A DNA stretch of 35,834 nt, taken from a virus. Where the stretch lies: positions 1 through 35,834 of IMG/VR virus record IMGVR_UViG_3300042445_001588; one strand, written 5' to 3'. This document shows, piece after piece, positions 4,824 to 31,726 of this stretch. Made by a program: the position numbers and the translations under genes. How positions within the stretch are numbered: position 1 is the stretch's first letter; every line of letters starts with the position of its first letter. Under the pieces are notes generated by a model. That model had not been told where the DNA came from, searched no databases, and was given only the letters and a program-made list of their open reading frames with translations.

Positions 4824-7063
4824 ACACCATGACACTAGACCCCACTCTCGACTGCTACAAGAACGCCAAGGCCACCGAGGGCGAAGGCATGATTAAGTTC
4901 TCGGACTTCATCCAGACGATCAAGTCACCCGAGTTTTTCCAACAGATCAGCGACATCCGCGATTGCTTGATCATCGGCGACGACAAGGAGTATGACAGGC
5001 TGAAGAAGGAGCTGGAGGCGGTGACGGTCTCCGGCGTATCGAAGGGGCCGCGCAAGAACACGGTCAGCGAGGAACGCTTCAGTCACAACGGCCTGATGCA
5101 GGTGGACATCGACGGTAAGGACAACGTCGGCTGGTCGATCAAGGCACTAACGGACCATTTCAAGGCGACGCCGCAGTGCATCGGCTCGAACATCTCACCA
5201 GGAGGCGACGGGGTGAAGGGCTATGTGCGGATCGACCCGGAGAACCACCGCGCCTGCTTCGAGGTGGTGAGCCAATCGTTCGCGGCCGCCGGCATCACGA
5301 TTGACGAGAGCTGCAAGGATGAGGCGCGGCTGTGCTTCGTGTCCTACGATCCGGACGCATGGTGCGACCTCAACCGGGTGGAGGTTTTCACGGCGGACAC
5401 TCTCATCCCTAACTCGAAGCCGAAACAGGGGCTGGTGATCAAGGGCAACGCGGACGCGGAACTAACGCTGGCCGACCTGGACGCCATGCTTAAGGCGATT
5501 CCCCGGCAGTCCTACGCGGAGTGGCTGAAGACATGCTCGGGCGCTTGGAATCATTTTGGCGAGGATGCCACCGCGATCATTGCCAAGCACTGGCCGGAGG
5601 AGTCACCAGGTGAGTATGCTGCCAAGTTCAAGGACCGCGAGACGCGCATCGGGATCGGCTCGGTGGTGATGGTGGCGAAGGAGCACGGGTGGCCGATGCC
5701 GAAGCGCATCGCTGAGACACGCAAGGCTGCGGCGAAGGTGGCGGCGGCGGTGCCTGCGGGCGGATCTACCAGCACGGCATTTCAGCCGGAGGACATTTTC
5801 TACGACCAGCCAGGCGGGAAATACATGATCCGGGTGGGTGCGAACTATCACGTCCACGCGAAGATCGGGCCGGTGAACACCGGGCTGACGAGATACATGG
5901 CCCCAAATTTCACGGACCCGAAGGACCTAGTGCGGGCGGTCAACGCGGCAATCAAGGGCCGGGAGCTTGACGGCGGTATCCAGTGGTCGGGGAGCATCGC
6001 GGGCCACGCGCAGGGGATGGCGGCCGACCATGAGGGCAAGCCGATCCTCATCCTCTCCGAGGCGCAAATCCCGACGCCAGCTGCTGGCGAGTGCCCGTTG
6101 ATCACGTCGATCCTCGATCAGGTTTTCGCGAAGGAGGAGGCGCTGATCACGATTATGTCGTGGCTGGCAGGCCGGACGCTCGCGGTGCGCGAACATGTCC
6201 ACATCCCATCCCCGATGCTGGTCATGGCTGGCGAGGTGAACAGCGGGAAATCCCTGCTGGCTTGGATCATTTCCCAACTGCTGGGAGGGCGAACCGCGAA
6301 CCCCTACGCGGCCTGGTCGGGCGGGATGCTTTGGAACGATGACTTGATCGGCTCGGAACTGCTGCTGGTGGATGACTGCACGGGCAACACGGACATCCGC
6401 GCAAGGCGTGCTTTCGGCGCGGCCTTCAAGGAGGCGATGTATCCGCACGCTGTGCAACTCCGCAAGCGGCACTCAAGCAGCATCTCGGTGCGGCCGGTGT
6501 GGGCGTGCGTGGTGTGCTGCAACGACACGCCGGAGTCGCTCCAGATCATCCCGCCCATCGACGCCGACATGAGCGACAAGATTATCCTGCTGCACTGCAC
6601 GGGGCTCAAGCTCGACCACGACACCTCGACACCTGACGGAAAGCGGGGACTGCAAGCGGCGATCCGCATGGAGCTGCCTGCGTTCGCGCAGCAACTCAGC
6701 GAGTGGGTGACGCCGGAGGAGTTCAAGGACTCGCGCTCCGGGGTTCTGGCATGGCGCGACCCGGACCTGGTGGATGCCGTGGACTCGCACAGCCAGACGC
6801 GACATCTTGAGCAACTCCTCGAGACCGCCATCACTCACATGGGTATCTGGCATGACCTGCCGAGGGAGTTTACGGCGATCGAAATTCAGTCGAGATTGAC
6901 CGACAACGCATCTCCTGTCCGCGATCAGGCAAAGCAGTTGTTCAGCTGGTCTGGTGCATGCGCGGCAATCCTCTCACGGCTCGCGGCAAAGGGAGGGGGG
7001 GTCGTTACAAACGGAATTTACGACTCTCATCGTAAAATCAGGCGATATTTCATCAAGCCATAA
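4820..7063 (+). CDS. Primase-helicase: VirE-N-like, PriCT-2 and P-loop helicase domains, 747 aa
   Basis: Residues about 20-195 match the VirE N-terminal / BT4734-like domain often found at the head of phage primases (RKNTVSEERFSHNGLMQVDIDGKDN, then SNISPGGDGVKGYVRI). Residues about 215-300 form a PriCT-2 unit (LKAIPRQSYAEWLKTCSGAWNH). The C-terminal half is a superfamily 3-like ATPase with Walker A GEVNSGKS at residues 471-478 and an acidic Walker B strand, LLLVDDCTGN, near residue 515. The protein is the likely replication initiator, since no DNA polymerase gene is present. ATG 4820 is chosen because it overlaps the zinc-ribbon stop; extension upstream to 4667 would bury that gene. A G-rich tract near 6991-7001 encodes part of the C-terminus. 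Confidence 0.9.
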   Translation: MNTMTLDPTLDCYKNAKATEGEGMIKFSDFIQTIKSPEFFQQISDIRDCLIIGDDKEYDRLKKELEAVTVSGVSKGPRKNTVSEERFSHNGLMQVDIDGKDNVGWSIKALTDHFKATPQCIGSNISPGGDGVKGYVRIDPENHRACFEVVSQSFAAAGITIDESCKDEARLCFVSYDPDAWCDLNRVEVFTADTLIPNSKPKQGLVIKGNADAELTLADLDAMLKAIPRQSYAEWLKTCSGAWNHFGEDATAIIAKHWPEESPGEYAAKFKDRETRIGIGSVVMVAKEHGWPMPKRIAETRKAAAKVAAAVPAGGSTSTAFQPEDIFYDQPGGKYMIRVGANYHVHAKIGPVNTGLTRYMAPNFTDPKDLVRAVNAAIKGRELDGGIQWSGSIAGHAQGMAADHEGKPILILSEAQIPTPAAGECPLITSILDQVFAKEEALITIMSWLAGRTLAVREHVHIPSPMLVMAGEVNSGKSLLAWIISQLLGGRTANPYAAWSGGMLWNDDLIGSELLLVDDCTGNTDIRARRAFGAAFKEAMYPHAVQLRKRHSSSISVRPVWACVVCCNDTPESLQIIPPIDADMSDKIILLHCTGLKLDHDTSTPDGKRGLQAAIRMELPAFAQQLSEWVTPEEFKDSRSGVLAWRDPDLVDAVDSHSQTRHLEQLLETAITHMGIWHDLPREFTAIEIQSRLTDNASPVRDQAKQLFSWSGACAAILSRLAAKGGGVVTNGIYDSHRKIRRYFIKP

Positions 7064-7306
7064 AAAGTAGAACCCCCCCCCCGCACATCCACATAACGCA
7101 ATAAGTTGCGTTTTGCGGGTCACTGCGGGGGGGGTTTTGTACCTTTAAAGGAGAAAAGTAATATAATAGGGAATTTCAAATCAGAATTCAAAAACAAAAC
7201 ATAGCAAACACCCCCCCGCACCCCCCCGCAAATGCCAACCCCACACAATCTGCCTCGAAAGCGCATTTTGATTGCAAATGAAATCCGATTGCGTTAATGG
7301 ATTGGC
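7064..7306. other. Intergenic region with C- and G-runs, candidate replication origin
   Basis: About 240 bases lie between the primase and the next gene. The left half holds a C10 run (7073-7082), a perfect 7-bp hairpin (7095-7101 with 7106-7112) and a G8 run (7127-7134). The middle (about 7145-7208) is markedly A/T-rich in an otherwise GC-rich genome. The right part holds a 10-bp unit, cccccccgca, repeated twice (7211-7230). An A/T-rich stretch flanked by repeats directly after the replication initiator gene is a common place for an origin, but no known initiator site is recognised. Confidence 0.45.
7071..7138 (+). terminator. Large hairpin with C/G arms after the primase, terminator-like
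   Basis: The arm AACCCCCCCC..GC at 7071-7084 pairs with GCGGGGGGGGTT at 7125-7136. Between them is a perfect inner stem, AACGCAA/TTGCGTT, with a four-base loop. The outer arm is followed by T bases (7135-7138). This could end transcription of the replication operon. The C-runs at 7211-7227 could also pair with the single G-run, so alternative structures are possible. Confidence 0.5.
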
Positions 7307-8891: not shown

Positions 8892-9521
8892 ATGAAAATA
8901 AAACTGGGAACCAAAATGGAAAACTACTCTCGGATTGCCAAGGAATACGGAGTATGTGTAAGAACCGTAATCAGGTGGAAAGATTCAGGTTGCGACATTA
9001 AAAACCCAAAATCAGTCGCCGAGTTTGTTCTTTCTTGTAAAACATCAAAAATACAAAACGTTTTTCAAAAACTCAGTAATGGTGACTGCCTTTTTTCTTT
9101 AGACCAAATGGTCAACATCAACGACTTCAACAGGAAAGAGAAAACGGCCAGCTCCCTAGACAGATTAAAAGCAAAGATAGAAGCGTTGGAGTTGAGACAA
9201 AGGGCCGCTGATCTGGAATACTTTGCTAAAAATGGGATAAAGAAAGTTAAGAAAAACAGCATCAATGATTTGTATTTAATTAAAAACAAAAGGAATGGTC
9301 TTTATAAAATAGGTGTTTCAGTAGACCCGTTAAACAGGGAAAAGACGTTACAGTCCCAAGAGCCTGAAATAGAAATGGTGAAGAATTGGCATGGGCGAGC
9401 ATCAACAGAAAGGTGGTGGCACAACAATTTCAAAGAACATCGAATAAGGGGGGAGTGGTTTGAATTAACACCGCAACAAGTTCGATTCATGATCCATAAA
9501 ATGAATGATACCGGAGACTGA
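8892..9521 (+). CDS. GIY-YIG superfamily endonuclease with N-terminal HTH, 209 aa (homing-type insertion)
   Basis: Residues 128-141 give YLI...YKIG, the two-strand core that replaces GIY-YIG in the T5orf172/MUG113 branch. Arg149, the ERWWHNNF helix (about 173-180) and GEWFEL (187-192) follow in the expected order. Residues 10-50 form a helix-turn-helix (YSRIAKEYGVCVRTVIRWKDSG). The gene is strikingly A/T-rich with AAA/AAT-heavy codons, unlike both flanking terminase genes, which points to recent acquisition. It sits between TerS and TerL, and its last 17 bases overlap the TerL start. The likely role is a free-standing homing endonuclease that targets phages lacking the insertion. Confidence 0.82.
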   Translation: MKIKLGTKMENYSRIAKEYGVCVRTVIRWKDSGCDIKNPKSVAEFVLSCKTSKIQNVFQKLSNGDCLFSLDQMVNINDFNRKEKTASSLDRLKAKIEALELRQRAADLEYFAKNGIKKVKKNSINDLYLIKNKRNGLYKIGVSVDPLNREKTLQSQEPEIEMVKNWHGRASTERWWHNNFKEHRIRGEWFELTPQQVRFMIHKMNDTGD

Positions 9522-11229
9522 AAAAGAATTAATCTCGGCTTGTTCGCACGGATTCAATCCCAGGTTTGGTGGTTCTGTTTCTCAGTGGGTTTCCGGTAGG
9601 GTTGCGATTCAAGATGGGTTGACGCCGAAGTATCTTGTTGCAAATGCACCGTGGCAGAGGGAGCCGTTGGATACTTTGTCGAAAAAGCAAAACAAGGAAA
9701 TCGTCTTCCTCGCGCCCATCGGCACCGGCAAGACCACGTTCATGGAGGCGGCGTTGCAATACATCATCGCCGAGGACCCCGGACCGACGCTGCTAGTCGG
9801 GCAAACCGACGACGACCTCAAGGACTGGGCCGAGACCCGGATGGACTACGCTATCAGGAACACCCCCGACACCGCCGCGTTGCTGCCGGAGGACCGCCAC
9901 AAAAAGCGGAAGATGCAGATCCTCTTCCCGCACATGTCGCTCTTCCTCACCGGTGCCAACCTCTCCGGCCTCCAATCGAAATCCATGCGCCGGGTCTTTT
10001 GTGATGAGGCATGGCAATACCGACCCGGCATGCTCAACGAAGCACGCGGCCGATTGCATGACAGATGGAACCGGCAGTTCTTTATCCTCTCCCAGGCTGG
10101 GTCCAAGGGCGACGAGCTGGACAAAGCATGGCAGCACACCGACCGCCGCGAGTTCTCTTTCCCCTGCCCGAAGTGCGGCACCCTCCAACCTTGGAAATGG
10201 TGCAACGTCGTCTATCCTGAGGACGAGAATCTGGACACGTTAGCTCGGGCGCAGGCCGCGCACCTCAAGTGCGACAACGCTGATTGTGACTGGACCTGCG
10301 CCGACTCGCCCCAGCCGCGCCGCGCTCTCGCCGAGTCCGCCTGTTACGTGCCGGCCGCCGAGGGACTACCCGGTCACGTCGGCTTCCACTACAACGTCCT
10401 TTGCAACTGGCGCAAGCCGCTGTGGGAGATCGTCCTGCTATGGCTCGAAGCCAAGGCGGCGCAACGTGTCGGCAACCTCGACCCGCTCCGGCAGTTTATT
10501 CAGAAGCGGCTCGCGGAACCGTGGGAAGAAGACCTCACCGACAACAGGACAGCACTCATCGGCAATGGCTACCTCGTCAGCGAGTTCGCCGAGAAGCAGA
10601 AGATCGAGGACGAAGCGCAGCGGTTCCTGGTGGTGGACAAACAACGCGACCACTTCTGGGCTGGCATCCGTGCTTGGCGAGCTAACGGCGAGTCGATGCT
10701 GCTATGGTATGGCCGGATCGAGACCTTCGACGGCGTGCATGATCTCGCGCTGCGCTATGGTATCGCGCCCAAGCTCGTCTTCATTGACGCGCAGTATGAC
10801 ACGGACCAGGTCTATTCCGCCTGCGCCCGCATGGACTGGACCGCGCTCCACGGCTCCGGCCAGAAATCATTCGCCTTCAAAAAACAAAACGGCGACGTCG
10901 TCCACCGCGCATTCACCCGGTTCCAGGATGCAGCTGCGCCCGGCGTCGGCCGTGCCCGCTATGCGCACTGGGCGAGTGACCGGATCAAGGACATCGTCCA
11001 CGCGCATCGCACCGGCCAGGCGGCGGCGTGGCACATCCCTGATGATGTCTCGCAGGACTGGCTCAAGCAGATCGACTCCGAGGTCAAGCGCGAGATGGTC
11101 AACGCCAAGACCAAGCAGGCCGAGTTCAGGTGGGTTAGGATCCGCAACAACAACCATGCCTTTGACGTCGAGGCCATGCAGGTCGTCGCCGCGCTGATGC
11201 TCAAACTCATCCCCGGCTTCGACGTCTAA
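9505..11229 (+). CDS. terL: Terminase large subunit, GpA family, 574 aa
   Basis: This is the ATP-driven DNA packaging motor and headful/cos nuclease. The Walker A-like loop is LAPIGTGKTT (about residues 69-78), and Walker B is VFCDEAW (164-170). A zinc knuckle inserted in the middle, CPKC at 221-224 with CDNADC at 256-261, is typical of the GpA family. The C-terminal nuclease lobe begins near FLVVDKQRDHFWAGI and contains the FIDAQYDTDQV segment. The length is slightly shorter than lambda gpA. The start at ATG 9505 overlaps the endonuclease gene; ATG 9501 is in another frame. Confidence 0.93.
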   Translation: MIPETEKELISACSHGFNPRFGGSVSQWVSGRVAIQDGLTPKYLVANAPWQREPLDTLSKKQNKEIVFLAPIGTGKTTFMEAALQYIIAEDPGPTLLVGQTDDDLKDWAETRMDYAIRNTPDTAALLPEDRHKKRKMQILFPHMSLFLTGANLSGLQSKSMRRVFCDEAWQYRPGMLNEARGRLHDRWNRQFFILSQAGSKGDELDKAWQHTDRREFSFPCPKCGTLQPWKWCNVVYPEDENLDTLARAQAAHLKCDNADCDWTCADSPQPRRALAESACYVPAAEGLPGHVGFHYNVLCNWRKPLWEIVLLWLEAKAAQRVGNLDPLRQFIQKRLAEPWEEDLTDNRTALIGNGYLVSEFAEKQKIEDEAQRFLVVDKQRDHFWAGIRAWRANGESMLLWYGRIETFDGVHDLALRYGIAPKLVFIDAQYDTDQVYSACARMDWTALHGSGQKSFAFKKQNGDVVHRAFTRFQDAAAPGVGRARYAHWASDRIKDIVHAHRTGQAAAWHIPDDVSQDWLKQIDSEVKREMVNAKTKQAEFRWVRIRNNNHAFDVEAMQVVAALMLKLIPGFDV

Positions 11230-11405
11230 AGGTCGAGCCGGAACAGTTTGTCGGCGATGCTCGACACGCTCGATCCGTCGCGTTTCGCGGCTCGCCGGAT
11301 GTTCGCCGCCGCCTCCTGTGAGACGGTGACAGACAACTTGGCTCGCGTCGGGCCGGTGGGTTTGCGGCCTGCGCCTTTTCTAGAGCCTCCTCTGGTAGTT
11401 TTCAT
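11226..11405 (-). CDS. Small ribbon-helix-helix-like protein, 59 aa
   Basis: Reading leftward from ATG at 11405, the protein has a basic N-terminus (RGGSRKGAGRKPTGPTRAK), a single strand (KLSVTVSQ) and then two helices (AAANIRRAAKRDGSSVSSIADKLFRL). That is the order of a ribbon-helix-helix DNA-binding protein of the Arc/CopG type. The start overlaps the stop of the upstream minus-strand gene as ATGA, and the gene's own stop overlaps the end of TerL, so the packing is very tight. It is the last gene of a minus-strand cassette and may regulate it. The gene is short, but coupling and fold pattern support it. Confidence 0.75.
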   Translation of the reverse strand: MKTTRGGSRKGAGRKPTGPTRAKLSVTVSQEAAANIRRAAKRDGSSVSSIADKLFRLDL

Positions 11406-11590
11406 GGGGTGAGTTGATCCAGGTCAGGAGCTTCGGAGACGAGCACGTGGTGCGTTTCCATATTGGCGGAGTCAGTGATGATCCAGTATTGATCGCCTTC
11501 GGGGTAGGCATTACCGTCGCTCATTTTGCCAGTGACCCAAGCGGTTCCTGCTGTAATTTTTTCTACTGCTGCGTTTGCGGTGATTTTCAT
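11402..11590 (-). CDS. Hypothetical minus-strand cassette protein, 62 aa
   Basis: The protein is strand-rich, with NAAVEKITAGTAWVTGKM, a central polar turn and then YWIITDSANMETHHVLVSEAP, and an acidic C-terminus. It looks like a small beta-barrel or sandwich, but I do not recognise it. It has no signal peptide or membrane segment. The stop overlaps the start of the ribbon-helix-helix gene, so these two are co-translated. It is encoded against the direction of all surrounding packaging and head genes. Confidence 0.68.
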   Translation of the reverse strand: MKITANAAVEKITAGTAWVTGKMSDGNAYPEGDQYWIITDSANMETHHVLVSEAPDLDQLTP

Positions 11591-11613
11591 ATTGGTATGG
11601 GAGAGGCGTGGGA

Positions 11614-11979
11614 TTAAGCGTGGGTGCCAAACATCTTGTTGATGTCGCCGTTACCGAGGCTGGCGAGGTTGGTGGCGTGCACGTCAAGGGCGGCGTTGTG
11701 GGCGGCGATTTCAGCCTTGGCCGCCTCAAGGGTGGCAGTGATAGGAGCGAGCGTCTCAGCGGTCAGGCCGATGCTGCCGATCTTGGCGATGCAGGTAGCA
11801 TGGCCGGTGATGGTTTGGATGCCCATGTGAGATTCGCTCTTACCGTTGATCGTGGCGGAGATGACAACCTCAAGCTCGCCGCTGGTCTTGCGGACGCCTT
11901 GGCAGTTGAGCAGGTAAGCGGTCGAGATGGAGACTTCGAGGGCGGTTCCGGTGGCGGTGGTCCAGTTGATCGTTTGCAT
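11614..11979 (-). CDS. Hypothetical minus-strand cassette protein, 121 aa
   Basis: I place the start at the ATG ending at 11979 (MQTINWTTATGT), which follows an A/C-rich leader of the type seen before many genes here; an upstream ATG at 12033 would add 18 residues. The first 80 residues alternate Thr/Val/Ile strands (ALEVSISTAYLL, ELEVVISATING). The last part is an Ala-rich helix with a Leu/Ile periodicity (LAPITATLEAAKAEIAAHNAAL). A repeated promoter-like element lies about 55 bases upstream. The function is unknown; the beta-then-helix layout is compatible with a virion decoration or an exclusion protein. Confidence 0.7.
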   Translation of the reverse strand: MQTINWTTATGTALEVSISTAYLLNCQGVRKTSGELEVVISATINGKSESHMGIQTITGHATCIAKIGSIGLTAETLAPITATLEAAKAEIAAHNAALDVHATNLASLGNGDINKMFGTHA

Positions 11980-12033
11980 TTGGTTTGGTTGGTTCGGGGT
12001 CCATTCCCCGCTGACAAGAAGACCTTTGCACAT

Positions 12034-12085
12034 CCTTTTGATTACCGCAAGATTTATTTCAAACTATTTTCATCCCCCCATTTTG
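12034..12085 (-). repeat. Direct repeat R1, duplicated upstream element of the minus-strand cassette
   Basis: About 52 bases that recur at 12395-12445 with two substitutions or fewer and one indel. On the minus strand the copy ends about 55 bases before the start codon at 11979. It includes a C6 run and an A/T-rich core that contains gatttatttcaaactatttt. Its position is that of a promoter or operator. Confidence 0.85.
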
Positions 12086-12137
12086 GCGCGGATTCTGACT
12101 TCGGTGGTGGTTTTCATCGTGTGTGTGTGTGTGTGAA

Positions 12138-12165
12138 GCGGGGATTGAACCCCGCCTTGGTTTTT
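12138..12165 (+). terminator. Hairpin with T-run between cassette genes
   Basis: A stem GCGGGG/CCCCGC (12138-12143 with 12150-12155), a six-base loop and a T5 run at 12161-12165 form a plausible intrinsic terminator on the plus strand. On the minus strand the same hairpin lies just past the stop of the 60-residue gene but has no T-run. A (gt) microsatellite of about 17 bases lies immediately to the left (12119-12135). Confidence 0.55.
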
Positions 12166-12347
12166 CAGATGCTTTTCAGGATTCTGCGGATCGTGTGCTT
12201 TGCCATTGGCCATGTTGACCATTCGCCTTGGGTTTTGATCATCCATGCGATTGGTGCACCGCCGAATTTATTGCGGTAGCAGATCACCGAAGTGCCGTTG
12301 ATTTGGAATGAGCGGGAGTCACTGATGTTTGAGCGGGTAGTTGTCAT
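12165..12347 (-). CDS. Hypothetical minus-strand cassette protein, 60 aa
   Basis: The protein begins MTTTRSN, contains short strands (SFQINGTSVICYRNKF, IAWMIKTQGEW) and ends in a basic helix (MAKHTIRRILKSI). It has no obvious signal sequence. It is separated from the rest of the cassette by about 185 bases and has its own copy of the upstream repeat, so it is probably transcribed independently. The gene is small and unrecognised; the call rests on the clean start, the upstream element and the hairpin at its end. Confidence 0.58.
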   Translation of the reverse strand: MTTTRSNISDSRSFQINGTSVICYRNKFGGAPIAWMIKTQGEWSTWPMAKHTIRRILKSI

Positions 12348-12394
12348 TTTGTTTGTGGTGTTCGCTTACGCTTACGTGAATAGAGATAGCACCC

Positions 12395-12445
12395 CCTTTT
12401 GATTACAGCAAGATTTATTTCAAACTATTTTCACCCCCCATTTTG
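12395..12445 (-). repeat. Direct repeat R2, second copy of the cassette upstream element
   Basis: Near-identical copy of R1. On the minus strand it ends about 48 bases before the start codon at 12347. The two copies flank the 60-residue gene, so each minus-strand transcription unit begins with the same element. On the plus strand it also lies just before the gene at 12464. Confidence 0.85.
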
Positions 12446-12463: not shown

Positions 12464-12745
12464 ATGGACGCGAAAACATTGCAGACGGCTCGGGAATGGG
12501 CGAGGGCGGGACTGTGTGACCCGACGATCTCCAACAAGCTCCGCACCAACCACCGCGCATTGATCCTTCAAAGCATGGAGCCGGGCGGGCTGGCGACAGT
12601 CACTCAAGCAACAAAAAATGGTGTCTCGATGGGGAAGACCATGGGACTATCCATCCCCGACACACTCACCGCCATGGGCCGCGCCATGGAGTGGATCGAC
12701 CTCGGCTATGTCCCGCAGCAGTCCAGGAGCCTCGGCAGGTTTTGA
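12464..12745 (+). CDS. Hypothetical head-region protein before the portal, 93 aa
   Basis: The protein is helical, with two amphipathic segments (TLQTAREWARAGLCD and DTLTAMGRAMEWIDLGYVP) and a polar middle. It has the size and place, between TerL and the portal, of the small head-tail joining proteins (gpW position in lambda), but I do not see gpW sequence features. The stop at 12743-12745 is part of a TTTTGAC motif that precedes the portal start by a fixed spacing. An alternative ATG at 12460 is in another frame. The function is open. Confidence 0.75.
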   Translation: MDAKTLQTAREWARAGLCDPTISNKLRTNHRALILQSMEPGGLATVTQATKNGVSMGKTMGLSIPDTLTAMGRAMEWIDLGYVPQQSRSLGRF

Positions 12746-29696: not shown

Positions 29697-29705
29697 GTTT
29701 TCGTG

Positions 29706-29749
29706 AGCCGCTGGTCGGAATTGAACCGACGACCTAATCATTACGAATG
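29706..29749 (-). other. attP: attP core: 3' part of a tRNA-Thr (CGT)
   Basis: On the minus strand this segment reads from the anticodon loop TTCGTAA through the variable loop and a perfect T-arm (GTCGG, TTCAATT, CCGAC) to the 3' acceptor strand CAGCGGC and a T discriminator. No D-arm or matching 5' acceptor strand precedes it, so it is not a working tRNA. Carrying the 3' end of a tRNA next to an integrase gene is how phages restore the host tRNA after integration. The expected host site is a tRNA-Thr gene with anticodon CGT. Confidence 0.85.
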
Positions 29750-29805
29750 AAGGCGTTTTCTATACGGCTCTAGGGGATTTCGGCGGAGGTTGGAAAATTG
29801 CCCTC

Positions 29806-31195: not shown

Positions 31196-31726
31196 ATGAG
31201 GAAGCCGAAGAACATGACCCCGGAGCAGGAAGCCGCCTGGAAAGCGAAGCGGCGGGAGTATGAGGCCAAGTATCGCGCCAAGCCAGAGGTCAAGGCGAAG
31301 CTGCGGGAGTATGCCGCCAGGCCAGAGGTCAAGGCGAAGAAGCGGGAGTATGATGCCAAGCCAGAGGCCAAGGCGAGGCAGCGGGAGTATCGCGCTAGGC
31401 CAGAGGTTAAGGCGAAGCTGCGGGAGTATGATGCCAAGCATCAAGCCAAGCCCGAGGTCAAGGCGAAGCGACGGGAGTATCAAGCCAAGCCAGAGGTCAA
31501 GGTGAAGCGGGGGGAGTATGCCGCCAAGCATTACGCCAAGCCCGATGTCAAGGTGAGGAAACGGGAGTATGCCGCCAAGCCAGAGGTCAAGGTGAAGCTG
31601 CGGGAGTATGCAGCCAAGCATTACGCTAAGTATTTCGCCCAAGCCGCCGCCGATCAATTCTTCATCATGGCCGGAGCCGCTGAATCACTAACCAATCTCA
31701 TCACACCAAACAAAAAAACAAAATGA
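31196..31726 (+). CDS. Basic 13-residue tandem-repeat protein, 176 aa
   Basis: After MRKPKNMTPEQEAAWKAKRR the protein consists of about eight copies of a 13-residue unit of the form AAKPEVKAKLREY. Some units are extended to 17 residues by an inserted KHQA or KHYA. The unit is very rich in Lys/Arg and Glu with a regular Tyr, so the protein is predicted to be a long charged helix or helical repeat. The C-terminal part (YFAQAAADQFFIMAGAAESLTNLI) is a separate short hydrophobic helix. The high charge suggests nucleic-acid binding. The stop overlaps the next start. Confidence 0.78.
   Translation: MRKPKNMTPEQEAAWKAKRREYEAKYRAKPEVKAKLREYAARPEVKAKKREYDAKPEAKARQREYRARPEVKAKLREYDAKHQAKPEVKAKRREYQAKPEVKVKRGEYAAKHYAKPDVKVRKREYAAKPEVKVKLREYAAKHYAKYFAQAAADQFFIMAGAAESLTNLITPNKKTK
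31256..31625 (+). repeat. 39/51-bp tandem repeats in the basic repeat protein
   Basis: The coding repeats are visible at DNA level as recurring gccaagccagaggtcaaggc..gcgggagtat units of 39 bases, or 51 with an insert. Copies differ mainly at the second codon and in the middle codons. Such arrays can change copy number by recombination. Confidence 0.85.

Follow-up and report, generated by a model that had tools for sequence, protein, structure and literature searches.

A cassette of four small genes opposed to the late operon and inserted at the end of the large terminase gene (TerL) is probably an accessory operon of the moron type, carried by a temperate tailed phage. The insert measures ~1.2 kb, and its site in close relatives is either empty or holds other genes. 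The substitutions that separate its genes from their homologues favor the minus-strand reading frames, and its two ends are kept among variants that differ in the middle.

The window analyzed here is IMG/VR record IMGVR_UViG_3300042445_001588 (35,834 nt), a complete virus record, identical over 127 bp at its two ends, taken from an environmental virus collection. The portal is a member of the lambda-portal family, and the coat protein falls within the P22 coat family. Judged by its genes, the phage is temperate, encoding an integrase (a weak profile match) and a CI-like repressor together with a divergent control region. The window was scanned for Rfam families and tRNAs without any match, and alignment of TerL and B121 against genome contigs found no confirmed relative and did not identify the host. 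By eye, we noted the 3´ half of a tRNA (CTTCATTCGTAATGA...GGTTCAATTCCGACC) on the minus strand at ~29700-29755, upstream of the integrase gene; it reads as half of tRNA-Thr(CGU), is likely attP, and could point to the host. Elsewhere, a MUG113/T5orf172 (GIY-YIG-like) gene at 8892-9521, between the TerS-like gene and TerL, is possibly another accessory insert, a 176-aa gene contains an in-frame tandem repeat with a 39-nt period (31241-31630; KAKLREYxARPEV repeats), and an intergenic inverted repeat with 41-nt arms and C- and G-runs (7045-7164) is a possible control region.

Table 1. Features of the cassette and its flanks, in window coordinates.
Feature	Position	Strand	Remark
TerL (GpA family)	9505..11229	+	cassette inserted at its stop codon
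RHH59, 59-aa ribbon-helix-helix protein, GGSRKGAGRKPTG N-terminus	11226..11405	-	last cassette gene
C62, 62 aa, family unassigned, cargo	11402..11590	-	95-98% in L004 and L012
B121, 121 aa, cargo	11614..11979	-	ORF listed as 139 aa to 12033
B121 leader	11980..12033	-	GC hairpin, then AACCAACCAAACCAA, then ATG
51-bp element, inner copy	12034..12085	-	candidate promoter/operator
Truncated reading frame MKTTTEVRIRAK...	12070..12117	-	likely broken start of a gene
Hairpin GGCGGGGTTCAATCCCCGC after A60	12137..12163	-	resembles intergenic hairpin after A60 in L099
A60, 60 aa, family unassigned, cargo	12165..12347	-	only in the window's cassette variant
51-bp element, outer copy	12395..12445	-	cassette outer edge wherever variants show that end
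93-aa gene, gpW position before portal	12464..12745	+	directly after TerL in most relatives

The initial annotation described four small genes running against all their neighbors, and this arrangement was confirmed: minus-strand ORFs are listed at 11226-11405 (59 aa), 11402-11590 (62 aa), 11614-12033 (139 aa) and 12165-12347 (60 aa), the genes on either side (TerL, the 93-aa gene and the portal gene) are all on the plus strand, and base skews change sign across 11300-12400. The extent given to the feature, 11226-12347, holds for the genes but not for the outer edge; the cassette extends to ~12445, since the second copy of a repeated element forms that edge. Position 11979 is the most likely start of the 139-aa ORF, giving a 121-aa protein (MQTINWTT...), because its homologues begin with MQTINWTT or MKTINWTT and because a hairpin and a CA-rich leader precede that codon. 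RHH59 lies tail-to-tail with TerL with a 4-bp overlap, and its start overlaps the preceding stop (ATGA). TerL genes that bear the cassette end in TAA, not TGA, the last bases being common to TerL and RHH59. Past the hairpin that follows A60, a gene start is interrupted after ~12 codons by the inner copy of the element; this frame is likely the broken start of the gene that came after A60 in its source. We considered the same T-arm-like hairpin as an att site and rejected it, as similar hairpins occur between genes elsewhere. As the initial annotation had stated, none of the cargo proteins is recognized: family and profile searches of A60, B121 and C62 gave no functional match, the predicted B121 structure (a beta sheet, then a long helix) resembled nothing significantly among viral and solved structures, and no nuclease or recombinase was recognized among the four cassette proteins.

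Evidence on the nature of the locus comes from the same junction in 80 TerL relatives. The junction is empty in 63 of these, where a leader, typically 16-17 bases long, separates the TerL stop from the 93-aa gene, after which comes the portal gene. An insert was measured in eight (L004, L009, L010, L012, L024, L027, L033 and L069), or ten when the cut contigs L011 and L022, which also show one, are counted; L070 carries its insert one junction further on, at the next after that between TerL and the 93-aa gene. At empty sites TerL mostly ends in GAYGTTTGA CACCC or similar. Insertion occurred at that stop codon, with TTTGACA retained on the far side of the insert, where it forms the leader to the following gene. 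The contents differ: an 86-aa minus-strand frame in L009 and L010, a 78-aa gene in L033, a 96-aa gene together with an RHH gene on the plus strand in L069, and an N6/N4 DNA methyltransferase in L024 and L027, the start of which is visible in L022. Unlike the cassette, the methyltransferase insert at this junction is one large plus-strand gene of unrelated content. Since close relatives are empty or differently filled at this position, we consider it a moron, an accessory slot of a type already known, with extra genes at a site where close relatives carry none or others; the accessory module postulated in the initial annotation is thus strongly supported. The absence of the cassette from most relatives agrees with its being dispensable for phage growth.

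Insertion at the same base could also suggest a site-specific mobile element that targets the 3´ end of TerL, in the manner of homing or integrating elements, and copies of the TerL end do flank the inserts of L009 (14 bp) and L033 (12 bp). However, no recombinase or nuclease was recognized in any insert, the insert contents are unrelated to one another, and, with the cassette, TerL ends in TAA instead of TGA and the left side of the insert has no such repeat, making a mobile element of this kind highly improbable. We also noted the TTTTGACNCC/TTTGACA motif at late-gene junctions (12442, 12741, 16519, 17445, 18566, 20003 and 23729). The exact form of the motif is enriched, and its TGA can serve as the stop of the preceding gene. 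The L070 insert lies at a second junction of this type.

Comparison with homologues supports the minus-strand frames as coding, most strongly for A60. A homologue of A60 (93%) is found in a replication-type early-gene region of an otherwise unrelated phage, L099, where it is followed by a similar GC hairpin, a CA-rich leader and another gene. The 28 nucleotide differences between the two fall 2/3/23 on codon positions 1/2/3, giving 22 synonymous and four non-synonymous codons; when the same number of changes was placed at random, none of 5000 trials had as few replacements. RHH59, 98-100% identical in L004 and L012, differs at 0/0/6 codon positions from the former (all synonymous) and at 1/0/6 from the latter (one replacement), and the B121 differences (21/14/41) are enriched at third positions. 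For C62, the changes are too few for a codon-position comparison to tell. There is thus evidence of selection at the protein level for three of the four genes. Plus-strand genes over the cassette were considered as an alternative and rejected, since the plus frames overlapping the cassette genes contain stops or show mostly replacement changes. One opposite register looks partly silent, its third positions being aligned with those of the genes, but stops interrupt it in both A60 and C62, and in L012 it is broken over RHH59. The initial annotation would have been contradicted had only plus-strand frames been conserved, and the substitutions instead favor the minus frames.

Three intact variants of the RHH cassette were found (in the window, L004 and L012), and two that are cut, in L011 and L103, agree with them. 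The ends are constant, with RHH59 next to TerL and the 51-bp element closing the opposite side, while the middle varies: A60-B121-C62 in the window, B121-C62 in L004, and C62 with a different, 64-aa gene in L012. This last gene sits between RHH59 and C62, such that RHH59 starts in an ATGA overlap with the stop of C62 in the window but of the 64-aa gene in L012. Homologues of B121 are present in L003 and L101 (76%) and in L102 (~40-43%), in small-gene clusters in the case of the unrelated phages L003 and L102; phage records gave none. The cassette might also be scrap, that is, fragments of early-region genes carried to the TerL stop by illegitimate recombination and kept because the site is harmless, with no regulated function. 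The truncated frame adjoining A60, the loss of B121 from L012 with a remnant leader retained, and the fact that most relatives manage without an insert would all fit such an origin. Yet the changes in RHH59 and A60 are nearly all synonymous, though the A60 signal may partly predate the insertion and stem from the donor lineage, and the same ends are retained in several variants. We therefore regard harmless scrap as rather unlikely and favor an accessory operon.

The repeated element reported in the initial annotation is real. A 39-base core occurs at 12034-12072 and 12395-12433 with one ambiguous position, there is no third copy, and no such repeat arose in 100 shuffles. The copies were said to lie about 50 bases upstream of two start codons, and the distances are 48 bases for the 60-aa gene and ~54 for B121 with its corrected start at 11979. 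No further or related elements within the window rose above shuffled controls, a match (GAAATTGTTTTGCAATAA) immediately before the CI-like gene was also within chance, and a looser pattern recovered only viral contigs already known to carry the element. A sigma-70 consensus scan of the element gave no match; the promoter type of the host may differ. Between variants, the element is not clearly better conserved than the genes next to it, and its conservation therefore gives no separate proof of function. L012 has a different 52-bp leader (linker) duplicated at 98%, one copy before each of its two cargo genes. As new cargo arrived with a duplicated leader both in the window and in L012, the repeat was probably left by the gain of a gene in which an existing leader was copied, and the duplication may be owed to insertion of a gene rather than to regulation.

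That the last gene encodes a ribbon-helix-helix-like protein was supported by structure prediction, Foldseek and profile search. The AF2 model of RHH59 (pLDDT 68) has helices at residues 30-43 and 47-58 after an extended stretch. Foldseek placed CopG, CdbA and Arc on top of matches that were mostly RHH DNA-binding proteins, each at a weak E-value (~0.8 and above), and a profile search gave CopG at E 0.06. These predictions support a strand-helix-helix, CopG/Arc-like fold. RHH59 scores under the curated cut-offs (16 bits versus 26 for RHH_5; 13.2 versus 20.5 for RHH_1), which indicates an RHH-like fold outside the named RHH families. It has in common with RHH phage proteins of the GGxRKGAGRKPTG type, which have a CopG-like fold, the N-terminal motif and a two-helix RHH region, but differs from them in falling below the Pfam cut-offs. 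A gene for an RHH protein with the same motif, followed by a pentapeptide-repeat-like gene, is also found convergent with TerL in the unrelated phage L097 (3388-4465), a similar arrangement.

Antitoxins of the RHH type are common, there are weak matches of RHH59 and its relatives to HicB-like antitoxin and BrnA models, and the ATGA overlap joins RHH59 to C62, all features that would suit a toxin-antitoxin or addiction module with RHH59 as the antitoxin of C62. Such a module would have a fixed adjacent toxin partner, but RHH59 overlaps a different gene in L012. The RHH gene is also last rather than first, and none of the cassette proteins matches a toxin family. We give this pairing very little credence.

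We propose that transcription of the accessory operon on the minus strand would start within the 51-bp element, mainly in the lysogen and without dependence on the late promoter. The element would hold the promoter, as it precedes the first gene in all variants that show this end and stands again before B121 after the gain of A60. The initial annotation supposed expression from a prophage; the integrase, the CI-like repressor and the divergent control region make expression in the lysogen possible. Translation of RHH59 would be coupled to that of the preceding gene, whichever this is, and RHH59 might, as a guess from RHH DNA-binding proteins in general, act as an autoregulator, binding a site near the element and limiting expression of the operon. 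The other cassette proteins could have the host or competing phages as their targets, and the anatomy suggests that cargo was gained by recombination that duplicated an existing leader and left the repeat behind. Alternatively, the minus-strand transcript could run into TerL and, as an antisense device, lower TerL in lysogens or in superinfecting relatives, with the proteins secondary. RHH59 and TerL overlap tail-to-tail, a consensus scan for intrinsic terminators found none on the minus strand before TerL, and an antisense RNA to structural genes of BTP1 excludes superinfection (PMC7067206). Selection at the protein level and the plus-strand orientation of other inserts at the junction argue against this reading, and we think it very unlikely.

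A broader version of the accessory-operon model, which we find doubtful, is a standing platform for cargo, in which small anti-host or anti-phage genes are swapped at repeated leaders between a fixed promoter/operator and a fixed RHH autoregulator. Every newcomer gene would then fall under the same control. The locus is of a known kind, and its interest lies in the record of swaps and in three small protein families rather than in a new mechanism; on its own it neither overturns nor opens a field. It documents the filling of a moron slot at good resolution: the insertion point is exactly defined, empty sites are numerous, several alternative contents occur, and single steps can be read from the leader duplications. 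The three families, two with homologues in unrelated phages, are candidates for functions in host takeover, exclusion or the lysogen.

The closest published case is the pid moron locus of P22 (PMC3573128), which comprises one gene with a Rho-independent terminator (PMC3573128). The cassette differs in having four genes, a duplicated leader and an RHH gene, and in that no terminator was found. Accessory loci antisense to their surroundings are also reported in Salmonella prophages, including STMMW_20121 of ST64B, and one has its own measured promoter (PMC7067206). Like the cassette, STMMW_20121 and the other Salmonella loci are antisense to lytic genes of the prophage (PMC7067206). Transcription from an own promoter was measured for one of the Salmonella loci (PMC7067206), whereas the 51-bp element of the cassette is a candidate promoter.
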